Of a stretch of 64,000 nucleotides of DNA, positions 24,190-54,200 are shown in pieces (position 1 is the first letter of the stretch; the number at the start of each line of letters is the position of its first letter). Below the pieces are notes generated by a model that worked only from the letters and a program-made list of their open reading frames with translations, was not told where the DNA came from and did not search any database. The DNA lies in contig OX422191.1 in NCBI GenBank assembly GCA_949130485.1, positions 4,403,754-4,467,753 on the forward strand. Reading direction: 5' to 3'. The position numbers and the translations under genes were made by a program. Source of the stretch: Agelas oroides. Taxonomy: Eukaryota > Porifera > Demospongiae > Agelasida > Agelasidae.

Positions 24190-25690
24190 CAGCTACTGAA
24201 AGTGTTACTATCTCAGTCTGGGGACAGGATGTGTCCCAACCATATGGAAGAGGGCTACTGTCACTCCAGTATTTAAGAAGGGAGATGAGAAGGATCCTAA
24301 CAACTATAGGCCCATCTCATGCCCTGTTGTTGGAAAGGTAACTACTAGAACAGATAGTATATTTCCAACTGATGAGCTTTCTACAGACCAATGGCATCCT
24401 TCCACCTTATCAGTCTGGCTTTCATCCAAACCACTCCACTGAGGATGTGCTAGTAAAAACAACTGATGACTGGAGAATAGCAGTTGACAAAGGCAGGGTT
24501 GTGGGAGTGATTTTTATAGACCTTATATTAGTTATAAAAGCTTTTGACTCGGTCCCCCAAACCCTACTGCTGAAGAAGGGGATCCCACTAAAATGGTTCA
24601 GGAACTTTTTGTCAGGATGCCTACTGATTGATGGAATCTCATCAGACTGGTTGCCAATCAAGTGTGGTGTACCTCAGGGAGCACTCTTGGGACAAATCCT
24701 GTTCTCTCTGTACATCAATGACCTTCCTAGTGTGCTTGAGACTGTCAACGTGGACACGTATGATGACAAGGCAATTTATGTACATTGATGGGATGAACCA
24801 GGAGGATGTGGTGAACTGTTTATCTGTGACGAACTGGTTTGGGTCAGTAAGTGGTGCCAGAACAACCGCATGGTAATTCAAGTGAAGAATGTTGCAATGT
24901 TCCTACTAGAAGAAAGCAAAGCACTGATCCAGTGGTGCATTTGGATGGGACAACTCTGGAGACTAAACCCTATACAGACTACCTAAGAGTTTGCATTGAC
25001 AATCAACTTTCATGGAAAGAGCAAGTCAAAAAGGTTACAGGTAGAGCATATGGAGCCCTTAGGAATTTAAGACGAGTTAAACATTCCCTCCCGCTGCACA
25101 CAAGGAAGTTGTTGTACAGAGCCCTATATTGCTGCCCATCGTTGAGTATTGTTCAGTGGTCTGGGACCCAAGTACTGCAATTCTTAAAGCTAAACTTGAA
25201 AGAGTTCAGAACTATGCAGCACGTTTGATCCTTCACAACCATCCTGGACTTCATCTGAGGAATTGCGAAACACCCTGAACCAGTTCAGAGGAGAGAAGGG
25301 GTTTTCGGCATACTAAACTGACATGCATGATCCTCACAAACAGCCCCATCATACTTACATAATAAGTTTCAATTTAACAGAGACATGAGCAGAAATGGAG
25401 GAGATAAGATCTACATTGAATGGATGAACACAAACAGGTTTAAGAACTGTGTTACGTACTATAAAGCTACAAAAATCTGGAACTCATTGGATCCTGCTGT
25501 CAGACACACCAGCTCACTTTGCACTTTTGTTTCATTGTATAGTATGCTTTTGCTGTAAACATATATGTTTTCCCCTTTATGTGATATTTATATATATAAA
25601 GATTGTTTGTACACAGTGCTTTCAGGTAGACCAGCTGTAAGTAGCTGATGAGACTTCCCCTGTTAAAACAAAGTTTATCTATCTACTCTC
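24190..25690 (+). pseudogene. Broken non-LTR retrotransposon (LINE) reverse transcriptase
   Basis: Frames carry, in order, a NNYRPIS block (about 24300), PYQSGF.P.HSTED, a GVIFIDL..AFD region, GVPQGALLGQILFSLYIND, a ruined catalytic box reading YDDK where YADD is expected, and a C-terminal block LSWKEQVKKVTGRAYGALRNL. These are the reverse-transcriptase and thumb motifs of Jockey/CR1-type LINEs. Several frame breaks separate the pieces, and the active-site change makes it dead. The 3' end shows a short TATC-type tail near 25680. Confidence 0.8.
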
Positions 25691-25724: not shown

Positions 25725-28700
25725 TCACAGTGTGATGGTAATCCTGCAAATGCAATCTTATTGTATTCTCCAACGGATATGAGTCATGCTTGGATTAAAG
25801 ACCACTTGAGGAATCCTGCATGTCAAAGAATTTTGAGTGAGTTTTCAATGGCTTGGCGATATGTGCTATCTCATCAAGGTGGAATTTGTCGAAGAAAGAT
25901 GATTCTTATGAGAGTACCACAGAGGTTGAAACTGGTGGTGATTGTTGTGATGTTTGCAGAACCCCAAAAATCCCTGAACCAAAAATGAAAGACCGTACGG
26001 AAGAATTAAAAGTACTTGTTAGTGCAATTGATGAGATTGGTTCAAAAGGAGAAGTCAAATTGGTGCAGTGGATGTGTGGATCACATCTAGCTTGGACAGA
26101 GAAGTTTAATACTCCTATGGCAATTCAAAAGGGCACACTGATCATTGGTGGAGACAATTTGTATGTTTGTGTCATGTGTATGGATTAGTACAAAGACAAT
26201 TGCAGTCCATTATCAATTGTACAGGGTCTTACAGCATAGAAGGGTTGTACAAAGTGTTGCACAAGGGGAAGTTATATATTGAAGAAAGAAAGCACTTGCT
26301 GGTTCTTCTAGTAGGAGACCCAATTTGCTGCAGCAGTCAGAGTGTTAGGGAAAGGTAAAATGGTGCTGGTGGAAGCAATTTGAGTGCAGAGAAGCGGACT
26401 AAACATGGCAAAGGAACACATGGCATTTTGGTGGTTCAGAAACTCATGAAAAATTGGAGTTCAGTAACTTCAAAGTATGATTACAGTTTACTGGCATTTT
26501 TGATGGTGAAGTAAACCAGCAGATGATATACATATCAGATTGTTCGAAACTGCCTCAGTACACCCCCAGTGATCCGCATTTGTTCAGTTTTCAAAAGGAA
26601 AGCTAAACAAACCAAGGGAGGTCAAGTTCATGATTGGAGGTCAAGAAGAAGCACTGATATACTGCTCAGCACCATGCCAGGGAACCAAATATTGTCCTGA
26701 AGATGGTTGTGGTTTTGTAGCATCACTAACATCTACAAAATGTCCTGTTCATGAGAACAAAAGGCTGTGTTATTCCACTACTAGGCCTTGGTAGATTATG
26801 CTCCAACTTCTACCCATTATTCTATTCTTTTATTCCCATAAACTTCACCTATTATTCTTTTCAATGCACCTATTATTCTCAATTATGCTAACTGGATTTC
26901 ACACATATGCATATACAAAATGACAATAATTTGAAAGTGGTTACAATTAGGATTCTCGCCTAGCATTACTGAAAGCTGTATGTAGTCTTCTAAAGAAGAT
27001 TCTTGCTGTAAACATAAGAAACTTGTTACTGGGAATGAGGCTACAGTGCACTTGGTCGAAAGAGATTGCAAGTTTGCAATGTTCTGGCCACCTGATCAGG
27101 AAAGTGTACCTATTATGCCAGCATAATTCTTGATGCTCAGGAGCACCTATTATTCCCAAAATAATGCTAGCATAATCTACCAAGGCCTATCCACTACTGA
27201 GAAAGGCAAATGTCCTATAGAGTTTTGCTACATACATCCAACTGACATAGCAACAGATCGCAGAAGTTGGATAGCAGGATTTGTGCTTAACCAGAAAGAA
27301 TTAAGTTCAAATTTTCACAATCACTCGTGACCATCTTCTTCCAAAATTTCTTCATTTGTCAAAGAAAAAATTGCCTCAACTGTGAAGTTGAATCCATTGA
27401 TTAAGCCCAAAGATATTCAGCAAGGATCAGGAATTGGAATAATACCCGCTGCAGTTGACCAAGCATCTGCAAATACGGGTAGGTTGCAGCATGAAGTGCG
27501 TAAGGCTAGAGAACAATTTCTTGTTTCTTCAAAGTGGAAAGTCAACTCATTTGAGGATGAAATTGATGAAGAAGATGAAAATGTGTGTGGTACTCCGGCT
27601 GAAGAAGTAGATCAGTTAAAGAAGCTTAGTAGTCCATACCTTGCCTCGGCAGGAATTGAAAATGGAATAAACTATATACATGCACACAATGTCACCGTAT
27701 ATGACACAAGTTCTTGCAAACACTGATTTTGTTGAAGCAGATGTCACCTTTAATTAGACATAGGAGTATCCTTACTTGTTTAATATGACTGGATTTGATG
27801 AAGTTTCAATGGAATGGGGGGTTGTTTCCAGAGTCAGAATGGGAAGCATCTGCATTAGCCTGAAAACATTTGAAAAGGCCTCCAAAGACTGCCCCAAGTT
27901 CTCATTGGGTGGTACACTTATGGGAATTGTGATTGATTGATGCAGAAGTTAAAGGATTGAAGGCAGCTATTGGTGATGAGCTTGCATCAGAACTGCTCAG
28001 AGGATGCCTGTGACGTTCTTGGGTTAGAATCCGGAAGCGAGTGGTATCATTTGATCCAACAAGCAGAAGTTAGACAGAAGCAGTGTCTTCAAAAGTCATC
28101 CACGAAAGATAAAGTGTATGTTGGCACCACCAGACAAAGAGATCCATTTCGCTGGAATTAAGTTGAAACATAGTATGTGTACAGTTAGTAGCATGATCTG
28201 AATACCGAATCTCAATATCAGGAAATATCAGGCAAAAACAGACACTTGACATTTCATGCCAACATAGCTAAGAGATGTACCCAGCTATAAGCAGGTGTAA
28301 ATACGTAACACCTTCAATACAAGCTACTGCAAAGCTATAGGCTCCATTGACATTTATGGGGCATATTTAAAATGATAATTATTTTGATCGACTGAAAACT
28401 GGGAGTAAATCCGCACATTGTGTGAATATGTATTAATTTTATTGTGATGTGCCTGAAGTTGTCCTCAACCAGAATGGAACATAGTTAGGGGCCTGGTTAT
28501 CTGCTTCATCATTATTCTAGATCTGCTAATAGTTCCACATCCCACGCAAAGAAGAGAACACAACCACACTTCAGTGACAGTGATGATGACCTTACTGACA
28601 CTCCTTCACACCACAGCCAGGGAGTGATGTCTTATGTGGGCCACAGCATAAGGAGGGAAATTCTTTAGGAAGACACTGGTAAGTTGCAGTGGTTTAAGGG

Positions 28701-28810
28701 AAAGATCACACACTACAATCCATCTGAACACGAATGCACTGCCCACTTCTCCTATGACAATTATGATTTGGAATTCTCTGTAGACGATGACGATGTGCGT
28801 TTTCTGGACT
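25725..28810 (+). pseudogene. Decayed large transposon protein: RecQ-type zinc region, Cys-rich region, transposase-like region
   Basis: Several frames broken by stops and shifts read in one direction. First comes a RecQ C-terminal/zinc-binding stretch: CRRKMIL (about 25890), one frameshift, then GGDCCDVC. Next are LVQWMCGS, a conserved VYGLVQRQLQ segment (about 26180) and a Cys/His cluster with CSAPCQGTKYCPE and CPVH (about 26670-26760). After an inserted MITE come DRRSWIAGF, an acidic region, NMTGFDEVSMEW (about 27785), and ELASELLRGC followed by a Trp/Arg segment resembling MULE-type transposase cores. The end (about 28680-28810) reads LQWFKGKITHYNP, a Tudor-like ending. The domain names rest on motif recognition; the transposase reading is the least certain. 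Confidence 0.6.
26783..27189. mobile_element. MITE inserted in the decayed transposon gene, 9-bp target duplication
   Basis: 407 bp with inverted ends AGGCCTTGGTAGATTATGC. It is flanked by TCCACTACT on both sides (26774-26782 and 27190-27198), and the coding frame on the left resumes on the right. Confidence 0.85.
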
Positions 28811-30744: not shown

Positions 30745-33700
30745 CTTGCAGAAAGAAAATGGAGAAGTGAAACCTACCCCAAGAAATGAACCAAGTAGTA
30801 GTATCACCAAGGCAGTAGTCGGAAACTATTGGTTCTCAAGCTATAGGATCTACAGGATTAGTCTACAGGATTAGTCTATAGCTTTAAAGATTGGCTAGTC
30901 ACTGTTTCATGGCAGAACAAAGACATACTTCCTAGAATCAGAGGGTGACAGAAGACCTGTACAAGCTAACTTGAATAGGCCATTGTATTTCATACCTGTG
31001 TTTGTCATTTTCTGTTAAGCTGTCTAGGAGCTGTATAGAACTTCTGATACAGCGAACCAGCTCCTCACCCGTGTTCTTACCTGGAAAAAAGAAGAATGAG
31101 GACAATATAAAATGTAGTATACATTAGCAGTGCAAAGCGGTTTATAAGCTTATAAGATTATACAGACTACAAAAGTACATGTACATGCAGATACAGTTTG
31201 ATCTAGCAGCTACATATAGTAAATAATGTATATGTATCTATGCACTTACTCTTTGCTAAGACATTGATGAGGTGTAGCGAAGCTTGGTGGGTGAGTAGAA
31301 TATCGGGGAGCTTTGTGTCACAGTCTCCAAGATAATCACAAAGGTGGCTGGCAAAGAGCCTATAGAGGAAAAAAGATGTTATTAAGAATTGCTTGAGAAA
31401 TAGTCACTAGTGAGGAAATGGTTAGCCTAGTTCCTAGGCCTCATCCATTTTTGTTATTCAGTTTGCGTTCAGTAAAATACACGGAAGCAGAAGAGCAGTG
31501 AAAATGGGGAAGGCCTGGGAATACTTATCACGTGATGTGGACATGAGCGGGATATAGGGAGGGGGGCGGTGCCCAACTACAAATTCGTGCGCAATAAAGC
31601 AAGGACTTCACTAAATGCTCAGGCTTGAAATCCATTTCATAACCTGCATGGTACTGAGTATAATCACCTTGTAGTTTGTGCATCCTTGCAGGACTGTTTG
31701 ACTATGCTGTTCACAAATAGTGGAAGGTCATCGGGAGTCATTGGAGGATCCAGAGTGGGGTGCTGGGAGGGTAAGTGATGCAATAAGACACACATGCAAG
31801 ATTTAAAAGTAAGACTAGTTCTGGCAAGTCTAGATGAGTAGGAGCATGATGCTACTAAAGTTGTTACATGTTGAATCTCCTGTTGTACAAGGTATAGAAC
31901 TGAGTGACAAGATATTCTCAGTAATTATTACAGACTGGTGCTATAGCCAGTCACACTGACCTACACTGTATACCAGTACATGTATGTAGTGTTTGCATGT
32001 ACTTTAAGTATGTACTCAAAATGGCTTCATCATGCATGCGATGAACACCATCCAGTCTTATCATCTTTAGCTCACAATTAAAACTTCAACAGTCAAAAAC
32101 CTGTACAGGAACACGTACTATAGTAAACAAACTTGATGTTACTTTGGAAACATGTATGCTTACATCCAAGCACATCTTACCTTCCTGATGTGGTTGACCT
32201 GTGTCTCTATCACATGCTGCACAATGGTGGAGTACACAGCCAGGGAGTGGCAGGAGACAGAGAGGGAGTGGGAGCGGACTGACATCACCACAGCCACACT
32301 CACACAGGGCTTCACCTGCAACCATACCTGCATGGTAACACAAATAGACAATGGTAACTATAGATACAACTATGATGTGATTAGGGCTCCTCCCACCCCA
32401 AACTTCTCTTCCACAACTGTTTCAAGTGCAAAGCAAACATCAAGGAAAAGAAGAGCCAAGGTAAGACCAGGATCAGGCTATGTTCAGGCTGTGTATGGTG
32501 TTAAACTAGATGTGAGCAAATTTAGCCTCGTTCCCAGGCCTTCTCCACCTCCAGTTTTTGATTGCTTGCAGTATGCATACATCTGTGAACAGACTTGCAT
32601 CCACATAGCAATTGTCATTCGTATAGTGATTACATCATCCACACTGCAAGCAATCAAACCTGAGCGGAGAAGGCCAAGGAATGAGGCTAAGCAAATTGTC
32701 TTACACTGTATAGTAATTGAATCACACTGTATACGCTCACTTTTCTGAATCTCTCCGGGTCAGTTTCTGCCACTTGCTGCAGCAGATGTAGCATACTGCC
32801 TAGTAGCATGGCTGTTGGTCTGAGGTTACTTTCTGTGCGTATGCCTTCCACCTCACATTTTCCTGAGGCTTCACACAGCTGGTAGAGCAGCTTGCAGAGC
32901 GAGGGAAGCAGGAACTGGGCAGAGGCTATGAAGGGGTTGAAGTTCATAAACATCTAGTTACAGTCTAGTTAACACTTGAAAGTCCAATTGAGATAATTCA
33001 CTATTAAAATATTAACTACTTACAAGTTGTACATACAGCAGAAAGCTAAAAACTCTAGCTTTGTTCCCAGATTCCTTCTCACATTTTTACATAATGTACA
33101 TAATGATGGTTACTATGTAACAATGTTCAATCAAACACATCTCGTCTGTATGTGTACCTGTCTCAGTCACTCGTCCAGCAAAGTGTGCACACCCCACCTC
33201 CAGGGTTCCATCAGCCAACCCTGTCAACACCATCTCAGCCATCACTTCTAGCAGCATCTCCACCAGGCACCTGGCATTCTCTGCTGTGGTGTCAGTGGAG
33301 GGAGAGGGGTGGGCTTCATCCACCTTCCTCTTTCGAGAGCTCCGACGTACAGACCTTGAGGATTGAGAACTGCATACAAGAGAACAACCGTGTCACTTTG
33401 ACTCTTACATTACATACAGTTTTAGGTTATCACACTACTGATGGGTCCCTGCAGTTTCCTCCCAGCCAAATATTGAGACCCTGAGCATGCAGCTAATTAG
33501 TTACATGCAAAAATATTCACTCTCCTTACTAGTAATACGGCATTAGATAAAACTACGCAGTTTGGGTATCCTTGCCCGTACTATATAGGGGACAAATAGC
33601 GTAGGGGTACGCAATTTGTCTCCTATAGTAATATGGGAAGCAAACAGTGTATAGGAATCTAGTGCTGCCTGTAGTACTATAGGGGACAAATAGCGTAGGG

Positions 33701-36700
33701 GTACGCAATTTGTCTCCTATATACTACAGGAGACAAACAGTGTAGGTTAGGCAATGTACATGATCAGTACTATATGATATAGAGATGTGTACAAAACTAC
33801 GCTATTTGTCTCCTATAGTACTACAGGAGACAAACAGTGTAGGTTAGACAAAGTGCCATATCCAAGGTGTCTGCTTAGAAGTGTTTTAGGCAGAACAGAA
33901 CACAAGTGCCATATCCAAGGTGTCTGCTTAGAAGTGTTTTAGGCAGAACCTTTATGGGACGCCTGTCCAGATTAGTGGTGCACCCTAGATCTATACCTGT
34001 CAGAACATTTTGACAAGTTTATAAGATCTATGACTCTGACACTTACAGTCACAGTGATACTGGAGAGTGTGCTATGAAGAGTGTGTAGTTGCAATCTAGC
34101 CTAGCCATGGATGATTCAGAGACAGTGGATGACACGTGTGACCACTGTCAGGGTGAAGCAACCATATTTTGCAATCAGTGCAAGAGTAGCTATTGCTCTA
34201 CTTGTAGCTCAGTTAGACATAGGGCTGAAAAGAGGAAAGAGCACTTTGTGGTGAGAATATCTCAGCTCTACACAGACACTCGTGTGCTCTCAGCGGATCC
34301 TCCTAACAAGACAATCCCCGATGAAGGTAAGTTGCTAAAACAGGCCCTTAGCTGTAGAAGTGGGAAGTACATGTCACAACTACCAAACCTGCACTAACTT
34401 CCCCATAGAAAACCAGGATGCCCAACTGATTGGGTTGCTGATGAAATTTTTCAAGAAGAACGCCTTCAAAGATTGGCAGCTTCGTGTGATCAAGGCCATC
34501 CTGGGTGGCAAGAATGCACTCATTGTGCAGCCGACTGGTTCTGGAAAGAGCCTTTGCTTTCAGTTCCCCAGCACAATTACAGCAAAGATGACAATAGTCC
34601 TGCTCCCCACTGTCAGCCTAATAATGGACCAGGTCAAAGCTCTTGAGACGACAGGGCTGAGAGTCACTTACCTTGGAACAATGCAGAATGACCGCACTGT
34701 CATGGGGAAGATTGCTCAGGCACAGTATGATGTCGTTCTTTCCACACCTGAATCATTCTTTGACAAGCTTGGACAACCAAAGCCGGTTTTTAGAAGCTTG
34801 GCAGTCCAGTGTAAACTCGGACTTGTGGCAATAGATGAAGCTCATTTGGTTCGCACATGGAGAACCTTCAGGTATGTACATACTAAATACATACGTACAT
34901 TTACATACACTTTAATGGTGTTCCAGAATATAATGTTAGTACTGCTTTTTATGCAGGCCTGCATACAGCTGGCTGCAGAAATTGGCAGTCCACTTCCCCT
35001 CAGTCCCTCTCATGGCTCTAACAGCTACAGCCACCCCAGAAGTAGTTGGTTGTCTAAAACAGCTCCTGAAGAATCCTGTATGTGAGATGGCTAGTGTCAA
35101 CAAACCAAACATCAGTTATTCAGTCACAGCAATCAAGCCTGAAGGTAAGCCGCAGCTGCAAATCATAAGCATCTACATGTAGAAAATTTAATGTTATTTT
35201 TTTATCCACAGCCACAGTTGACAAGTACAGCAACTTAGCAACGCAAATTCTCCCCCTGCTTGACAATTCGAAAGCGATTGTATACGTGGATTTTGTACGA
35301 GATGTAGCGCCACTGGCAATAGCTATTCGTCAGAGTGGGCATCAGAGTTGCGGCTACCATGGAGAGGGCATGTCATACATGACAAACAGACCACCCTTGC
35401 AAACTGGCAAAGTGGCCAGATCCAGGTAATGGTATGTACAGAGAGGCAGCAAGGACTGTGGATGCTTTGCTGTCGCGTTTGCAGTTTCACTTCTCCTGGG
35501 GGATAATCCAACCACCCTGACTTACCACCAGAAGGACATGAGACAACACTTCATCAACTGTCTTGAATCAAGACTTTTTGCTCCTTTTCCAGCAACAGAA
35601 AAGAAGGCCAAGAGAAAAAGTCCAGATGTCAAATTGAACATTCAGCTATAAATATGCACAGTCATCTCTTTTTAAGTACTTGTACATTATGCTAATTATC
35701 TACATGTATATACCTGTGTCTAACCTACGTGTACACACCCCATATAGTACTGATCACTTTGTCTAACCTACACTGTTTGTCTCCTGTAGTACTATAGGAG
35801 ACAAATTGCGTAGTTTTGTACACACCTCTATATCATATAGTACTGATCATGTACATTGCCTAACCTACACTGTTTGTCTCCTGTAGTACTATAGGAGACA
35901 AATAGTGTACCCTACGCAGTTTGTCCCCTATAGTATACAGGCAACTGGCACTAATGCTGTATATACCTGTACTGTGTCAGGTTCCGGTAGTATATAGGAG
36001 ACAAATTGTGTACCCCTACGCTATTTGCCCCCTATAGTACTACAGGCAGCACTAAATTCCTATACACTGTTTGCTTCCCATATTACTATAGGAGACAAAT
36101 TGCGTACCCTTACGCTACTTGTCCCCTATATAGTACGGGCAAGGATACCCAAACTGCGTAGTTTTGTACGCACCCTAGTAATACAATGATTGATGGACAT
36201 ATTCAGTTTACAGATTTGTTGAATATCAAAATTTACTAGTTTCACAGTCCCATGCACTATACTGCCCACCTTCTGGTTGCACTGAGGGGTGGCAGCAGGA
36301 CCCTCTCTGCCCAAGTGAGCACCTCCTGCACTCGCTCTCCAAACTCCTCCTGGTCCTCAGACTCTGCTCTCTTGTGCATACACATCCGCAAGTACACATT
36401 CAGTGCATTAGTGAGGAGGGAGAAGGAGGGAGGAGGGGATGATGGTGGAGGGGTGTCATGGGAGAAGTGGGACTCAAGCAGCTCCTGGAGAAATGGACAC
36501 AACCTCAATCACAGCTGATTCAAAACAAAGTAACACTGGACCACTAACTAAGCCAACATTGTCAACAAGTCAATATTGCTACTGTGGTAAGTCAGTCATC
36601 ATGTGTGTTTACAGGTTGTAATGTACGTACCAATTCACGCTTTGTGAGAGTTTTAAAGGTCAAAGTACATACCGTAGAATTGGGAGCAAAATGACCAGTT

Positions 36701-48200: not shown

Positions 48201-51200
48201 ATCACATCTCAGCTAATACTACGTATACGTAGTGGGTAGTATTTCTTAACATGCACAATGTGTGCATACATGTATATGGACAGGTAAAACGGCTGCTGCT
48301 GAGATTCCAGATGAGCATACATGTGGGTGACTTTGCATAACATCTAGGCCTGTTTTATAAGGGAGATGTGGTTCGTTGATTGTTCATGTATGTATTGTCC
48401 CACAAGTGAACACAACAGTGACAGCTACTGCACAGCATGTGATAACATACACGTAAATTTGGTGTGTGCTTTATTTATAGCACCACCCACAAACCAGCAC
48501 TCAACAGCAAATTTGTGTAAATATGTGAAATGCACTTAACGATGCGTGAGTACAGCATTATATATATACATGTAACTACCTTATCCAAACATACACATAA
48601 GCTCTTTATAAAAGTGCTCAGAGACAGTACAAGTTTGTGTGGGTGTACAGGTCATTAGTGATGACGATGAGATGGAACAGGTAACAAGAAGATACCGTTA
48701 TTAGGCGCACCTTGCTATTAGGTGCATATTATTATTTATTAGGTGCATGCTTCGTTCCTGGTACACGGCATCATTTATTAAGCGCATGTGCATTATATAG
48801 AGTACACAATGGCGGCAAGAGATTGAGTAAAACCATGGCGTCAAGAACACGCAGCATGCTCGATGGTCATCCTGAAGTCAAACACGAGAAGAGATACACA
48901 ATGCAGGCTTTTCCTGCTTTTGGCAAACGCAAAGCTTGCAAGCCACATCCTTGGCGGCTTACGAGACTACTAATATAGGCTATTGATAGTAAAATTTTTC
49001 CCATATGAAGCGTGAAGCCCTGAATATACAATGACTGCGAATCACGGTCCCCTCCCACGTCTTCTGATTTTACGTCGATACTCGCCAGGCGAACACGTCT
49101 AACAATTTACTGCATCATAGCGCTGCATATTATGCAGTCGTTACTGAGCCGCCTGTAGGGCGTAGCCTTCATTGCATCCTTCGTTTAGCACATATCCTCT
49201 ATTAGGCGCATATTTGCCTACCACTTACACTTAGAAGCGCATACGCTTATTATTATAACCAGAGTCTACGGTAATACATGTACGTGTACATTTACATGTA
49301 CACGTACACGTGGGTGTTGGGTCATAACTACAGTGTATATATATACATGTACATGTAACAATTTTCAATGACAGGACAATTAAGCCAATATCCTAACAAT
49401 CACTGCACATCAGCCATCCTTCACGTTTTGAGTGAGGACTACTGGCTTAACCTCAACTGTTTCTGTAGACATGAGGACTGACATTTAGTGATCCTGCTAC
49501 AAGTTACAAATGGCCAGGGTACAAGACTATACATTTACATGTATGTACCTAGCAGGTGTTCAATGGGGCAGATGTGCCAGAACTTGATCGTTCTCATTCC
49601 CTTCACGAGCAGCAAGAGATCCAGGAGTGCGATGCGGACCTTCTCAGAGGTGTCATGAAGGTGGTTCTGGAGGAGGGGGAGGAGGTTGCGCAAGAGAGGA
49701 TGACTCAGCCGGTTCTCCAGCACCAAACACAAACCCTGGTGTGTGTGTGCGTTTGGAAGAGTTGGGGGGAGGGGAGACGTTATATTGTAATGTGACAGGT
49801 AAAGAGAGCTTACACAATGTATACGTAAATGCACACACATAAGCTCAGGTCAGTACAAAGTGCTATACATGTACCCATACATTGTACAGTGGTTGCAGGG
49901 AGCAACTGCACATACCATGTACTACATGTAGTTTACCATATTGAGATATACACATGTACATGCAGTTGTGAGTACTATACTAACCCTTGACATCATTCAT
50001 ACAATGTATACTGTGTGTCCGACACGCAACCAAGGTACAGTGTATGATATGAGACCAACTGATACTGTACACTGTAAGTACAATGTCCACCCCACCTGCA
50101 GCACAGCGACCCTGACACCAATGGCTGAAGCATCCCATGTGAGGTCTCTGATCAGACGGGTCAAGAGAGACTTGATCACAGCAGCTGGGACCATCTCCCA
50201 GAAGTAGGAGAGCACACGACACACCCCCACCACACCTGTCACCCTCACCACCACAGAGGGATCATTGAGGAGCTCCTGAGGTGAGGGAGAAGGACAGGGG
50301 GAAGAGAAAGGAATGGGAAAACAAGAAAGAACCTATAAGACAATACAACACACATGTGTATCTACTGAAGTAGTGAAGTCCTGCTGGCGAAAATTTCCAT
50401 AGTGTGTACAAATCTGATCATAGTCAGTGTGCTACTATACATATAACACAGTGCACACACATATATACAACAGAGAAGTGTGACACACTGAAAACCGGTA
50501 TGTATGTCTACACATTAACATGTGCATATGTGGTTAAAGCCAGTCCCTCCAATCTTGTCAACACATGTACATGCACAAGTAGTCTCATACTTAGCCTCGT
50601 TCCCAGGCTCTTGTGCGTGGGCGGGGAGAAAAGAGCCTGGTACACACTGTTTGCGCATGCTCAGTTTTCCCAGGATTTCTGGGAATTTGGAAATTCCCGT
50701 AAAATATGCTCCGTTACACTAACCTCCGCGAGGCACGCCGACTTCTCCCGTATAAAAGATGCCTGCCACTGACCACGCTCTGTGTAGACGATGATGAGGG
50801 AGCGACGAAGGTACTCAGCTCTTCGCTTGCAGGAATTATTCACACATTCATCCATTCCAGCTAAACGCTGCGGCACGTGAATGACGCAATCTGTCCCTTT
50901 GAAGTTCACCGATCGCCTCGAACGAAGCAATGCAGACCGTTACTGGCAAAGCGATATTGTTTTTGACTTCAAAACCGCCCGTATGTGTCCCACAGGGAGT
51001 GTAACTATGCAGTGTGGCCTTTCAGCATATAAACAGAAATTGACCGTAATTTTAGTGTGGCGGAGTAGTATGCAGGTTACCAAGGGAACTTGGCGCATGT
51101 GTGAACAGTGTGTACCAGGCTCTCTTTCCTCCTCCCCCGCACAAGAGCCTGGGAACAAGGCTATCTCATACTGGGCTTTATGTTAGTGGCCCCTAAGACC

Positions 51201-54200
51201 CCAGGCGCAAAATGTACATACAAGTGTACATAGTGCATACACAATACATGCATGCAAGTACAACAACATGTGTATCGTACCATCATGGCATCAAACTGTT
51301 TCTGCATGCCGAGGTCAATCTCCTCACGAGTTGAGTTAGGTTCCTGCAGAGGGAAGGCATCAAACAGGAGGGAGGCAGCGTTGGCTCGAACATGGGGGTT
51401 GGCCACCTTGAGGGCCCGCCAGAGGAAGGGATTATAGAGCCGCAGGATCATCTCGGACACTCCCTTCTGGTTCTTCTGCTGGTGAATGTAGCCCAAGAGC
51501 TGGAGGGTGAGGGGAGAGATACTCAAGGAGGGAAACAAGTGCATGGTCGATGGCATTGGTGAAATGCTGGCAGTTGCTGGGAGTTGAGCTTGTATAGGGC
51601 TGGTTTGAGCTGCCAGGACCACAAGTTGAGCTACAACTACCAGACAACCATCACAATCCTCTATATATACATGTACATGTATATATAGAGGATTGTATGC
51701 AGCATTCAGTATGATGTGTATAAGGGATTGTGATGGCTGTTGGTTGCCTGATTGTCCTGTGTATGATAGCCCAGTAGTCAGAACACTGGTCTAAATTAAA
51801 GCAAGGCGTGTACATTGTATATAGTGGAAGGAGGGGTTGCCATGTTGCGACAGAGGTGAGGAGAGGGGTGTATGTAATAGATAAACCACAGTAGACAGGG
51901 ATTTATGGTCCATAAACCTCCTGAGCCCGAGGGCACAGCCTGAGGGCAAGGGTTGTTTATGGACCATAAATCCTTGTCTACTGTGGTTCCTGATTGGTCC
52001 TTGTTGTTATTAGTAAACACACATGGTAGTTTACACTGTAAACAAGGTATGTTATTAGTAAACACACATGGTAGTTTACACTGTAAACAAGGTAGTGTAA
52101 ACATGTAAAGTAGTTTACACTGTAAACAAGGTTGCTTATAGGAAACATCATTTTACATATTTCCTTGATCTGCACACAGAACTGTTGAATGTACAACTTC
52201 TGGGGTATATGGAACAGAATCTACAGAATCTACAACTTCCTGTCAGTATATGGAAAATACCCATCTGTTGCCACAGAAACAAGGGTGAAGTGGAGTTAAT
52301 ATTATTTGATGGGTGAGAAGGCAGGCTCGTGAAAATACGGCCGCACACTCGTGCAATGTTAAGCCATATTGCCTTCTCACCCATCAAATAATAATATACT
52401 ACTCTGATTTAGCAGCACCTAGAAGATAGACAGCTACTGCGCATGCACAGTACAAAGGTCGCTGCTGCGTGCATATTTAATGAGCTTCTGGCTGCAGGCC
52501 TGTTTCTAGCTTTGGACGGCACCAGCACGCGTACCGATCCCTCTACCAGTGGAAAAAAGTACCGTAAGTTAGTAAATAATGCCGTCTTCATCCGTAATGA
52601 AAGCTTATTCGTTGTTTCAGCAGCGGCTACGAGTGCATTCCAATTAAAGCACATGCCGCGGTTGCTACGCAGCATATGCCCGGCAGGCTATCGAATACGG
52701 ACTATCGAATATGGGAAGATATTAGTCATGTTGCTCTATGGGAAATACTATTGGTGCGTATACTAGGTATATAATAAATATGCATATACACTGTATATAC
52801 CCCAACTGGATACCTTTCTCAGTGAGTGGAACAGTGAGTGCAGGCCTTGTCTTGGAGCATGTACTGCACAGAACATCAGATCTTGAAGACAGTGCTCCTC
52901 AATTTGCTAATGAATGGACAGTACATTGTGACACATTGAGGTTACATATTTTCAAAAAAGCATGATGCAAATGGACAGTTTTATGAACACACATGAATGT
53001 AAGTTATGCCATGAGAAGTTCAAATGAACCATGAGAAATTGACTGTAGACCAAATTTACCCAAGGATTGGGGCATCAACTGTAGCAACATACTGTGGGTG
53101 GAGTTTGTCAGCAACACATATACCGGTCCGTGCACATGTAATTACCGTAGTCTCGCGAAAAAGGGCCCACTTACGAAAGAGCGCCCACCCCCTACTTTTC
53201 GCCCAATTTCCTGTACAGGGTCAAAGTTTACTCGAATGAGCGCCCACCCTGGAGCGAGCTTCGCGTGGAGTTTGAGAAGCACAGTATGCGTATCTGAGGT
53301 AAGAAACTTCGTGTAATACTTCACCGAAGTTGCTACATGGCATATTTGCGTAGACGGACGTACACATGTAGCTAACGCGGTGTGCACTGTGAGCTACACC
53401 ATGCTCATGGTGACGTGGTGCCGTTCAGAGTGTTGTGTGCTGTTAGGACTCGACTTCAAAGCCGCTGGTGGTTCCGTTGTACGCTACTGTTTGTCCAATT
53501 ATTTGCTTCGAGGGCATCGAGTCGCTGTAAACAAGACATGGGCACTCTTTCGTGGCTAAATGCGGAAACACCCGAAAGAGCGCCCACCCCCCTCTTTGGC
53601 AGACTTGTAAGGTGCTCCGCCCATGGGCCCTTTTTTGCGACACTACGGTAATTACCTTGAGGTAGGGTCCTGACGCCAGCTTCCACGCTCTGAAGTAAAT
53701 CTCACCATAAATCTCCAGAAATTGTCTGTGAGGAAATACACACATGAACATGTAAGCTAAGAGGGTTTTTCAATATGGTCTTGCTAGTCCTCCCCCAGTA
53801 CCCACCTCCCACTATTGGGGAGGCAAGGCCAAAGGGAAGAGGAAAAAGAATGATATCATCATGCACTCTTGCTAACTTCAGAGTTTTCCTCTCTTTTATT
53901 ATTGATGGAAATTTAAGAACGTAAATGCACATGCATGCACATGTACCTCGCCATGTGTATATCCTTCAATATTCAAAGAAAACTACACACTGTTTTCTCA
54001 ACCATTGAAGTAGGGGGGGGGGGGGGGGGGGGGGGGTCACTCTTTTCCCATATCATACAGGGACTGGTAAAACTTAAAACCAACTTCGGTAGTGCATGTA
54101 GAGGTGTAGGCTCAAAACTTAATTACATGTACTCTCAGCCGACCTACTTTGGACAGTGTGGGATCTGGTTCTTGATGGTCTGGTGAAGGTCCTCCACAAA

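Follow-up and report, generated by a model that had tools for sequence, protein, structure and literature searches.

What kind of transposon carries pieces of a B-box zinc finger, a RecQ-type helicase and a ULP1-type protease between long inverted repeats? The question is raised by a 64,000-nucleotide stretch of the Agelas oroides genome (the window; contig OX422191.1, positions 4,403,754 to 4,467,753 of the forward strand, here C9:4403754-4467753), in which a compact element of this composition lies at 33539-36175. We searched the host genome (259 Mb, 141 contigs) and public assemblies for its kin. The element is very probably a non-autonomous deletion derivative of a Mutator-like lineage whose members encode, in a single protein, a B-box, a RecQ helicase reaching to the RQC domain, in most cases a zinc finger of the GCM/WRKY-like kind, a DDE transposase and, as a further part, either a ULP1 protease or a ubiquitin-like leader. 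This clan comes in two types: the B type (L021, L022, L056) has a C-terminal ULP1, and the A type (L055) has an N-terminal ubiquitin-like leader and a tail. Direct support comes from the anatomy of the elements, the order of their parts, target duplications of 8-10 bp, long terminal inverted repeats (TIRs), conserved catalytic residues and near-identical copies.

The window element is a deleted copy

Alignment of the two ends gives a target duplication of 9 bp (TAGTAATAC). The preliminary description, made from the letters alone, had placed the element at 33539-36174 with a 10-bp duplication. The duplication is real and exact and the start stands, but the end is 36175 and the 10-bp length was rejected, because the tenth matching base (a C) falls inside the element when both ends are given the same length, as they have in L022 and L056; a short relative, L005, does keep 10 bp. 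The arms, described there as 300-430 bp long, measure 317 bp (left) and 421 bp (right) and are identical at 307 of 321 aligned positions. About 104 extra bases account for the longer right arm, and shorter palindromes and repeats are abundant in both.

Between the arms lies the intron-containing B-box/RecQ gene that had been described, with four exons (34107-35651) and GT-AG introns. Its spliced protein matches the B-box models PF22586 (6.2e-07) and PF00643 (2.9e-05), both above cut-off, as well as PF00270 (9.5e-23). The last exon is out of frame and meets a stop directly before the ULP1 tail, which had been recognised by its QRGSKDCG motif and follows a deletion junction near 35440. Compared with L022 and L021, the deletion has removed the rest of the helicase, the entire transposase with its DDE domain, and the protease His and Asp, so that the helicase keeps its N-terminal portion alone and the protease its Gln and Cys. 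Because the deletion took out the whole transposase, this copy is unable to make one and thus would be mobile only via transposase supplied from elsewhere. Two short elements with the same ends, L007 (1633 bp, 9-bp duplication) and L005 (429 bp), carry duplications that suggest such movement in trans.

Relatives in the host genome keep the parts in order

A genome search with the left inverted repeat, which had been proposed as a check, gave 101 matches; these are counted as pieces, not copies, since many are repeats inside one copy, and 40 of 50 candidates were scored. One relative, L021 (C6, 4262 bp), shares both ends with the window element and has parts of all four domains (B-box, RecQ, transposase, ULP1), but a deletion in the middle has taken the helicase's second half and the transposase start. 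Long elements with all four parts, also foreseen, are L022 and L056, in which B-box, RecQ, DDE transposase and ULP1 follow one another on one strand between TIRs with sequences of their own. In L022 (C13, 5550 bp, exact 9-bp duplication) the joined exons give 552 + 599 residues, with B-box, RecQ including its Zn and RQC parts, transposase and ULP1. L056 (C15, 7324 bp, 9-bp duplication ATTTGATCA) reads B-box, RecQ, zinc finger, transposase, ULP1 and PHD finger.

The A type is represented by L055 (C1, 7854 bp), with arms of 422 bp at 96% identity. Its main frame runs for 1511 stop-free codons (first Met at codon 33) and encodes, in order, the ubiquitin-like part, a B-box scoring slightly under the Pfam cut-off, RecQ, the GCM/WRKY-like zinc finger, transposase and tail. 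A second copy of this type on C14 is 98.9-99.5% identical in the two aligned parts but is interrupted by a stop and by an insertion close to where the gene starts; the duplication is 8 bp in each of these two copies. A third copy (C1:29.0M) carries a large deletion and lacks a duplication.

Exact target duplications were found in seven of the ten clan copies in which both ends were examined: 9 bp in the window element, L022, L056 and L007 (weaker in L007, where it lies in a GT-rich stretch), 10 bp in L005, and 8 bp in two L055-type copies. The match is 8 of 9 positions in L021, and no duplication flanks L024 or the third L055-type copy. The relatives exclude chance as the origin of the element's features.

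Two further loci belong to the window family. L024 (G000:C4:9427700-9431500) is an array of a 73-bp unit (about 20 units per match list), the unit being a piece of the family's TIR; it is flanked by two ends of the family, with no exact target duplication. L023 (G000:C8:3964400-3972000) is a truncated copy (TIR, B-box) whose flanking frames resemble, by eye, a reverse transcriptase and a seven-helix receptor.

A transposase query of the host genome returned 97 matches in 52 clusters. With ULP1 positions taken from the best 150 of 417 candidates, 17 of the 52 clusters have a same-strand ULP1 match no more than 5 kb downstream (0.07 expected), and none has one upstream or on the opposite strand. 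At 25 separate transposase places, RecQ stands upstream on the same strand in 16 (in L051 as a short piece only, adjoining the transposase), with a zinc finger at 19, ULP1 at 10 and a B-box at 6. These counts are lower bounds, since the sequence at the nine places lacking RecQ extends only 1.5 kb past the match.

Among the same best 150 of 417 candidates, ULP1-type protease genes are very numerous in this genome, and some recur as frames of equal score in several copies, with no transposase of the RecQ-transposase clan matched nearby. Therefore, another transposon family probably also carries ULP1 proteases.

RecQ and transposase form an old fusion

Two protein searches of public assemblies gave 24 kindred proteins: the L055 protein retrieved 19 and P0009 retrieved 15 rows, five of them new, while the L022 protein found no kin among 7988 scored candidates. 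One of them, P0002, shares 93% identity with L055 and could derive from the same host or a closely related one. All kin except P0002 and P0021 have precomputed helicase or RQC domains, and domain scans of seven of the 24 found the helicase in all seven. P0018-P0020 and P0021-P0025 were excluded from alignments A1 and A3 (P0020 spans only 13% of the compared part and P0019 40%). The kin do not all extend into the transposase. In A1, all 16 kin cover the first catalytic Asp, 15 have a helicase or RQC domain, and most are 43-66% identical over the compared part.

These data bear on the possibility that RecQ is host cargo picked up by a Mutator-like element in the manner of Pack-MULEs, with no role in transposition. 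Plant Mutator-like elements do capture gene fragments (PMC2528002), and the window copy on its own would look so. However, L055 joins RecQ and transposase in one uninterrupted frame, the order recurs at 16 of 25 places, and the aligned kin reach from helicase into the transposase core almost without exception. We consider cargo very improbable. The single frame, the recurrent order and the divergence of the kin indicate instead that the fusion is old and has been kept.

The N-terminus is kept in nine proteins (P0001, P0003, P0008, P0009, P0011, P0015, P0016, P0020 and P0022), and all nine have Gly-Gly two or three residues ahead of the first B-box Cys, a junction like that of ubiquitin fusion genes. 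The Pfam ubiquitin model scores above cut-off in P0001 and P0022, the other leaders being ubiquitin-like by alignment only. In P0001 the Gly-Gly corresponds to Gly75-Gly76 of ubiquitin (HMMER), and single ubiquitin chains match at about 1e-05. By eye, L057 has a similar frame with Gly-Gly upstream of the B-box; in L022 and L056, the short stretches inspected ahead of the B-box showed none.

No kin were confirmed among 35 pattern matches in GTDB prokaryote contigs and 54 in IMG/VR viral contigs, and the clan is therefore not read as viral or bacterial. The top fold match in the viral library was a bracovirus protein (3.2e-10). A polydnavirus Mutator element, which may or may not be this protein, appears in PMC6446971.

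A probable placement of the clan near Mutator

Clan transposases have a DDE RNase-H core with C/DxxH between the second D and the E, and an AlphaFold2 model shows this core with a helical insertion. Among solved structures, the best re-aligned matches are ISCth4, Hermes and the P element. Foldseek ranks Hermes (1.1e-04) and the P element (1.2e-04) best, and identity to ISCth4, which we take to be a member of the IS256 family, is 13%. The motif is common to hAT, P, Kolobok and Dada (PMC9587614) and thus does not single out Mutator. Families absent from the VIA listing are not excluded by that absence.

For the helicase, TIGR00614 scores 343.1 bits in L055 and 320.3 in P0003 against a cut-off of 219.8, and the RecQ part matches WRN (E 4.2e-67), with the RecQ-Zn and RQC parts mostly under their cut-offs. 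The ULP1 His-Asp-Gln-Cys set is kept in L022, L056 and L021; its profile matches in the PDB include 6dg4 (6.1e-08) and SENP1 (1e-04), and PF02902 is under cut-off in all three.

There are at least two ways to place such an element. Target duplications of 8-10 bp, TIRs of 317/421 bp (window) and 422 bp (L055), the DDE domain and the CxxH motif are consistent with Mutator-like elements, the placement we favor. Against it, none of the Mutator Pfam models is above cut-off (best PF00872, E 0.0059; PF10551 unlisted), although such models need not cover all Mutator lineages. The proposed descent from an autonomous B-box/RecQ/transposase/protease element is supported by the relatives that carry all four parts, with three reservations: no intact copy of the window element's own subfamily was found in the host genome, the L022 gene has a single frame break, at exons 6/7, and L056 is read as exons, its transcript being putative. 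Alternatively, the clan could be a separate superfamily in the hAT-P-Mutator clade whose duplication length converged on 8-9 bp. The Pfam result and the Foldseek ranking of Hermes and the P element would fit this, as would the 8-bp duplications of the L055 type, a length known from hAT and Zisupton (PMC12730594). Zisupton/KDZ elements combine an 8-bp duplication with a KDZ transposase; within the clan the L055 type has 8 bp and the window type 9 bp. We regard a separate superfamily as unlikely, though it is the most serious of the alternatives.

A possible mechanism

For a Mutator-like element of this build, (i) the palindrome-rich TIRs would be bound by the zinc finger or the transposase, (ii) the DDE domain would perform cut-and-paste excision and insertion, its cuts staggered by about 9 bp, (iii) the WRN-like RecQ motor may unwind folded ends or drive donor-gap repair, and (iv) the ULP1 or ubiquitin-like part may act on SUMO/ubiquitin marks or on protein processing. 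Internal deletions of cut-and-paste elements are known to arise when gap repair is interrupted, and interruption of donor-gap repair could leave deletions like that of the window copy. More tentatively, and with odds we would put below even, the clan may be a deep lineage, found in several assemblies, that moves with a WRN-like RecQ motor built into its protein. This protein would be made as a ubiquitin-like fusion and cut after the conserved Gly-Gly to free the B-box/RecQ/transposase chain, a sister lineage would instead bring its own ULP1, and transposition would be coupled to helicase-driven unwinding of the ends or to repair of the donor gap, under control of the ubiquitin/SUMO system.

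Features and surroundings in the window

Coordinates are collected in Table 1. Some 5 kb upstream of the window element there is an older L055-type relic; TIRs sought around it were not found, and a reverse transcriptase fragment adjoins it. Coding-looking minus-strand stretches occur on both sides of the window element, and an exon for a condensin II non-SMC domain lies at 51161-51790 on the same strand, so the element may sit inside an intron of a condensin II gene. One flanking exon searched against the PDB gave a best E of 1.8.

Table 1. Positions of the transposon parts and neighboring features in the window
Feature	Position	Strand	Support
Left target-site duplication, 9 bp, TAGTAATAC	33530..33538	.	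end alignment
Left TIR, 317 bp, starts GGCATTAG, inner palindromes abundant	33539..33855	+	
Perfect 46-bp direct repeat (33851-33896, 33904-33949) at inner edge of left TIR	33851..33949	+	
Exon 1: B-box zinc finger, ATG at 34107	34107..34326	+	PF22586, PF00643
Exon 2: first RecA domain of RecQ-type helicase (PTGSGKS, DEAH)	34409..34871	+	PF00270
Exon 3: helicase motif TATATP and residues after it	34957..35144	+	
Exon 4, opening part: second RecA domain begins here; frame broken	35212..35440	+	
Exon 4, remainder (exon 35212-35651): ULP1-type protease tail (QRGSKDCG...), joined via internal deletion; junction ~35440, exact base unfixed	35441..35651	+	
Right TIR, 421 bp, ending CACCC	35755..36175	-	
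Right target-site duplication, 9 bp	36176..36184	.	
Older relic of the same clan (L055 type), a separate element: RecQ, zinc finger, transposase, tail fragments	25734..28806	+	
Reverse transcriptase fragment	24342..24788	+	PF00078 1.2e-10
Condensin II non-SMC domain exon	51161..51790	-	PF12422 1.4e-20

Comparison with known systems

Could the clan be a helicase transposon of the KolobokH or AcademH kind? AcademH elements have short duplications and an XPG nuclease. Both groups combine a DDE transposase with a helicase, AcademH in animals and fungi (PMC10799480), and KolobokH, like the clan, joins DDE transposase and RecQ in one element (PMC9587614). However, KolobokH is reported from fungi only, makes 4-bp TTAA duplications and has its helicase downstream of the transposase, whereas the clan helicase is upstream (PMC9587614); a term count of that paper's text returned no ULP1. 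Kolobok membership is ruled out by duplications of 8-10 bp that are not TTAA, and a KolobokH or AcademH origin is the least credible of the readings we weighed.

Among proteins with the nearest structures, ISCth4 belongs to a bacterial insertion sequence, and we know of no helicase in the IS256 family. Mutator-like elements, whose duplications measure 8-11 bp and mostly 9 bp, have in common with the clan the 9-bp duplication, TIRs of up to hundreds of bp, the DDE domain and perhaps the zinc finger. The groups listed in Table 1 of PMC6446971 (MuDR; Phantom, Rehavkus and other animal groups) include some with zinc fingers, OTU, SET, FAR1 or PHD parts; that table gives no helicase, B-box or ubiquitin-like part such as occur in the clan. 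By term search, helicase, RecQ and Ulp1 are absent from this survey and from an arthropod survey (PMC13359780). ULP1 itself does occur in Ginger1 and in Mutator elements from hydra, lancelet and plants (PMC2836005), as the preliminary description had stated for some Mutator-like elements. Ginger1 has its ULP1 at the C-terminus (with PHD in one listed element) and an integrase-type transposase, with no RecQ in its description (PMC2836005), and KI-MULE carries a ULP protease in reverse orientation, without TIRs and, as described in PMC2528002, without RecQ.

The combination had seemed to lack a name, and titles and abstracts of the searchable literature, which leaves Repbase and subscription papers outside, returned no Mutator element bearing a B-box, a RecQ or any other helicase. 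RecQ is already known in KolobokH and ULP1 in some Mutator elements; for a Mutator-like transposase with RecQ and ubiquitin/SUMO parts in one protein, we found no printed description. Caution is called for where RecQ genes are multi-copy in such genomes, since they may belong to transposons. Cut-and-paste transposases are thought to use host repair helicases. With a RecQ motor of its own in the DDE chain, such a lineage would allow a direct test of the part that unwinding and donor-gap repair play in Mutator-type transposition. Likewise, ubiquitin/SUMO enzymes carried by transposons have been suggested to act in transposition (PMC2836005), and a Gly-Gly ubiquitin-like leader that alternates with ULP1 in a sister type would offer a concrete test of that suggestion.

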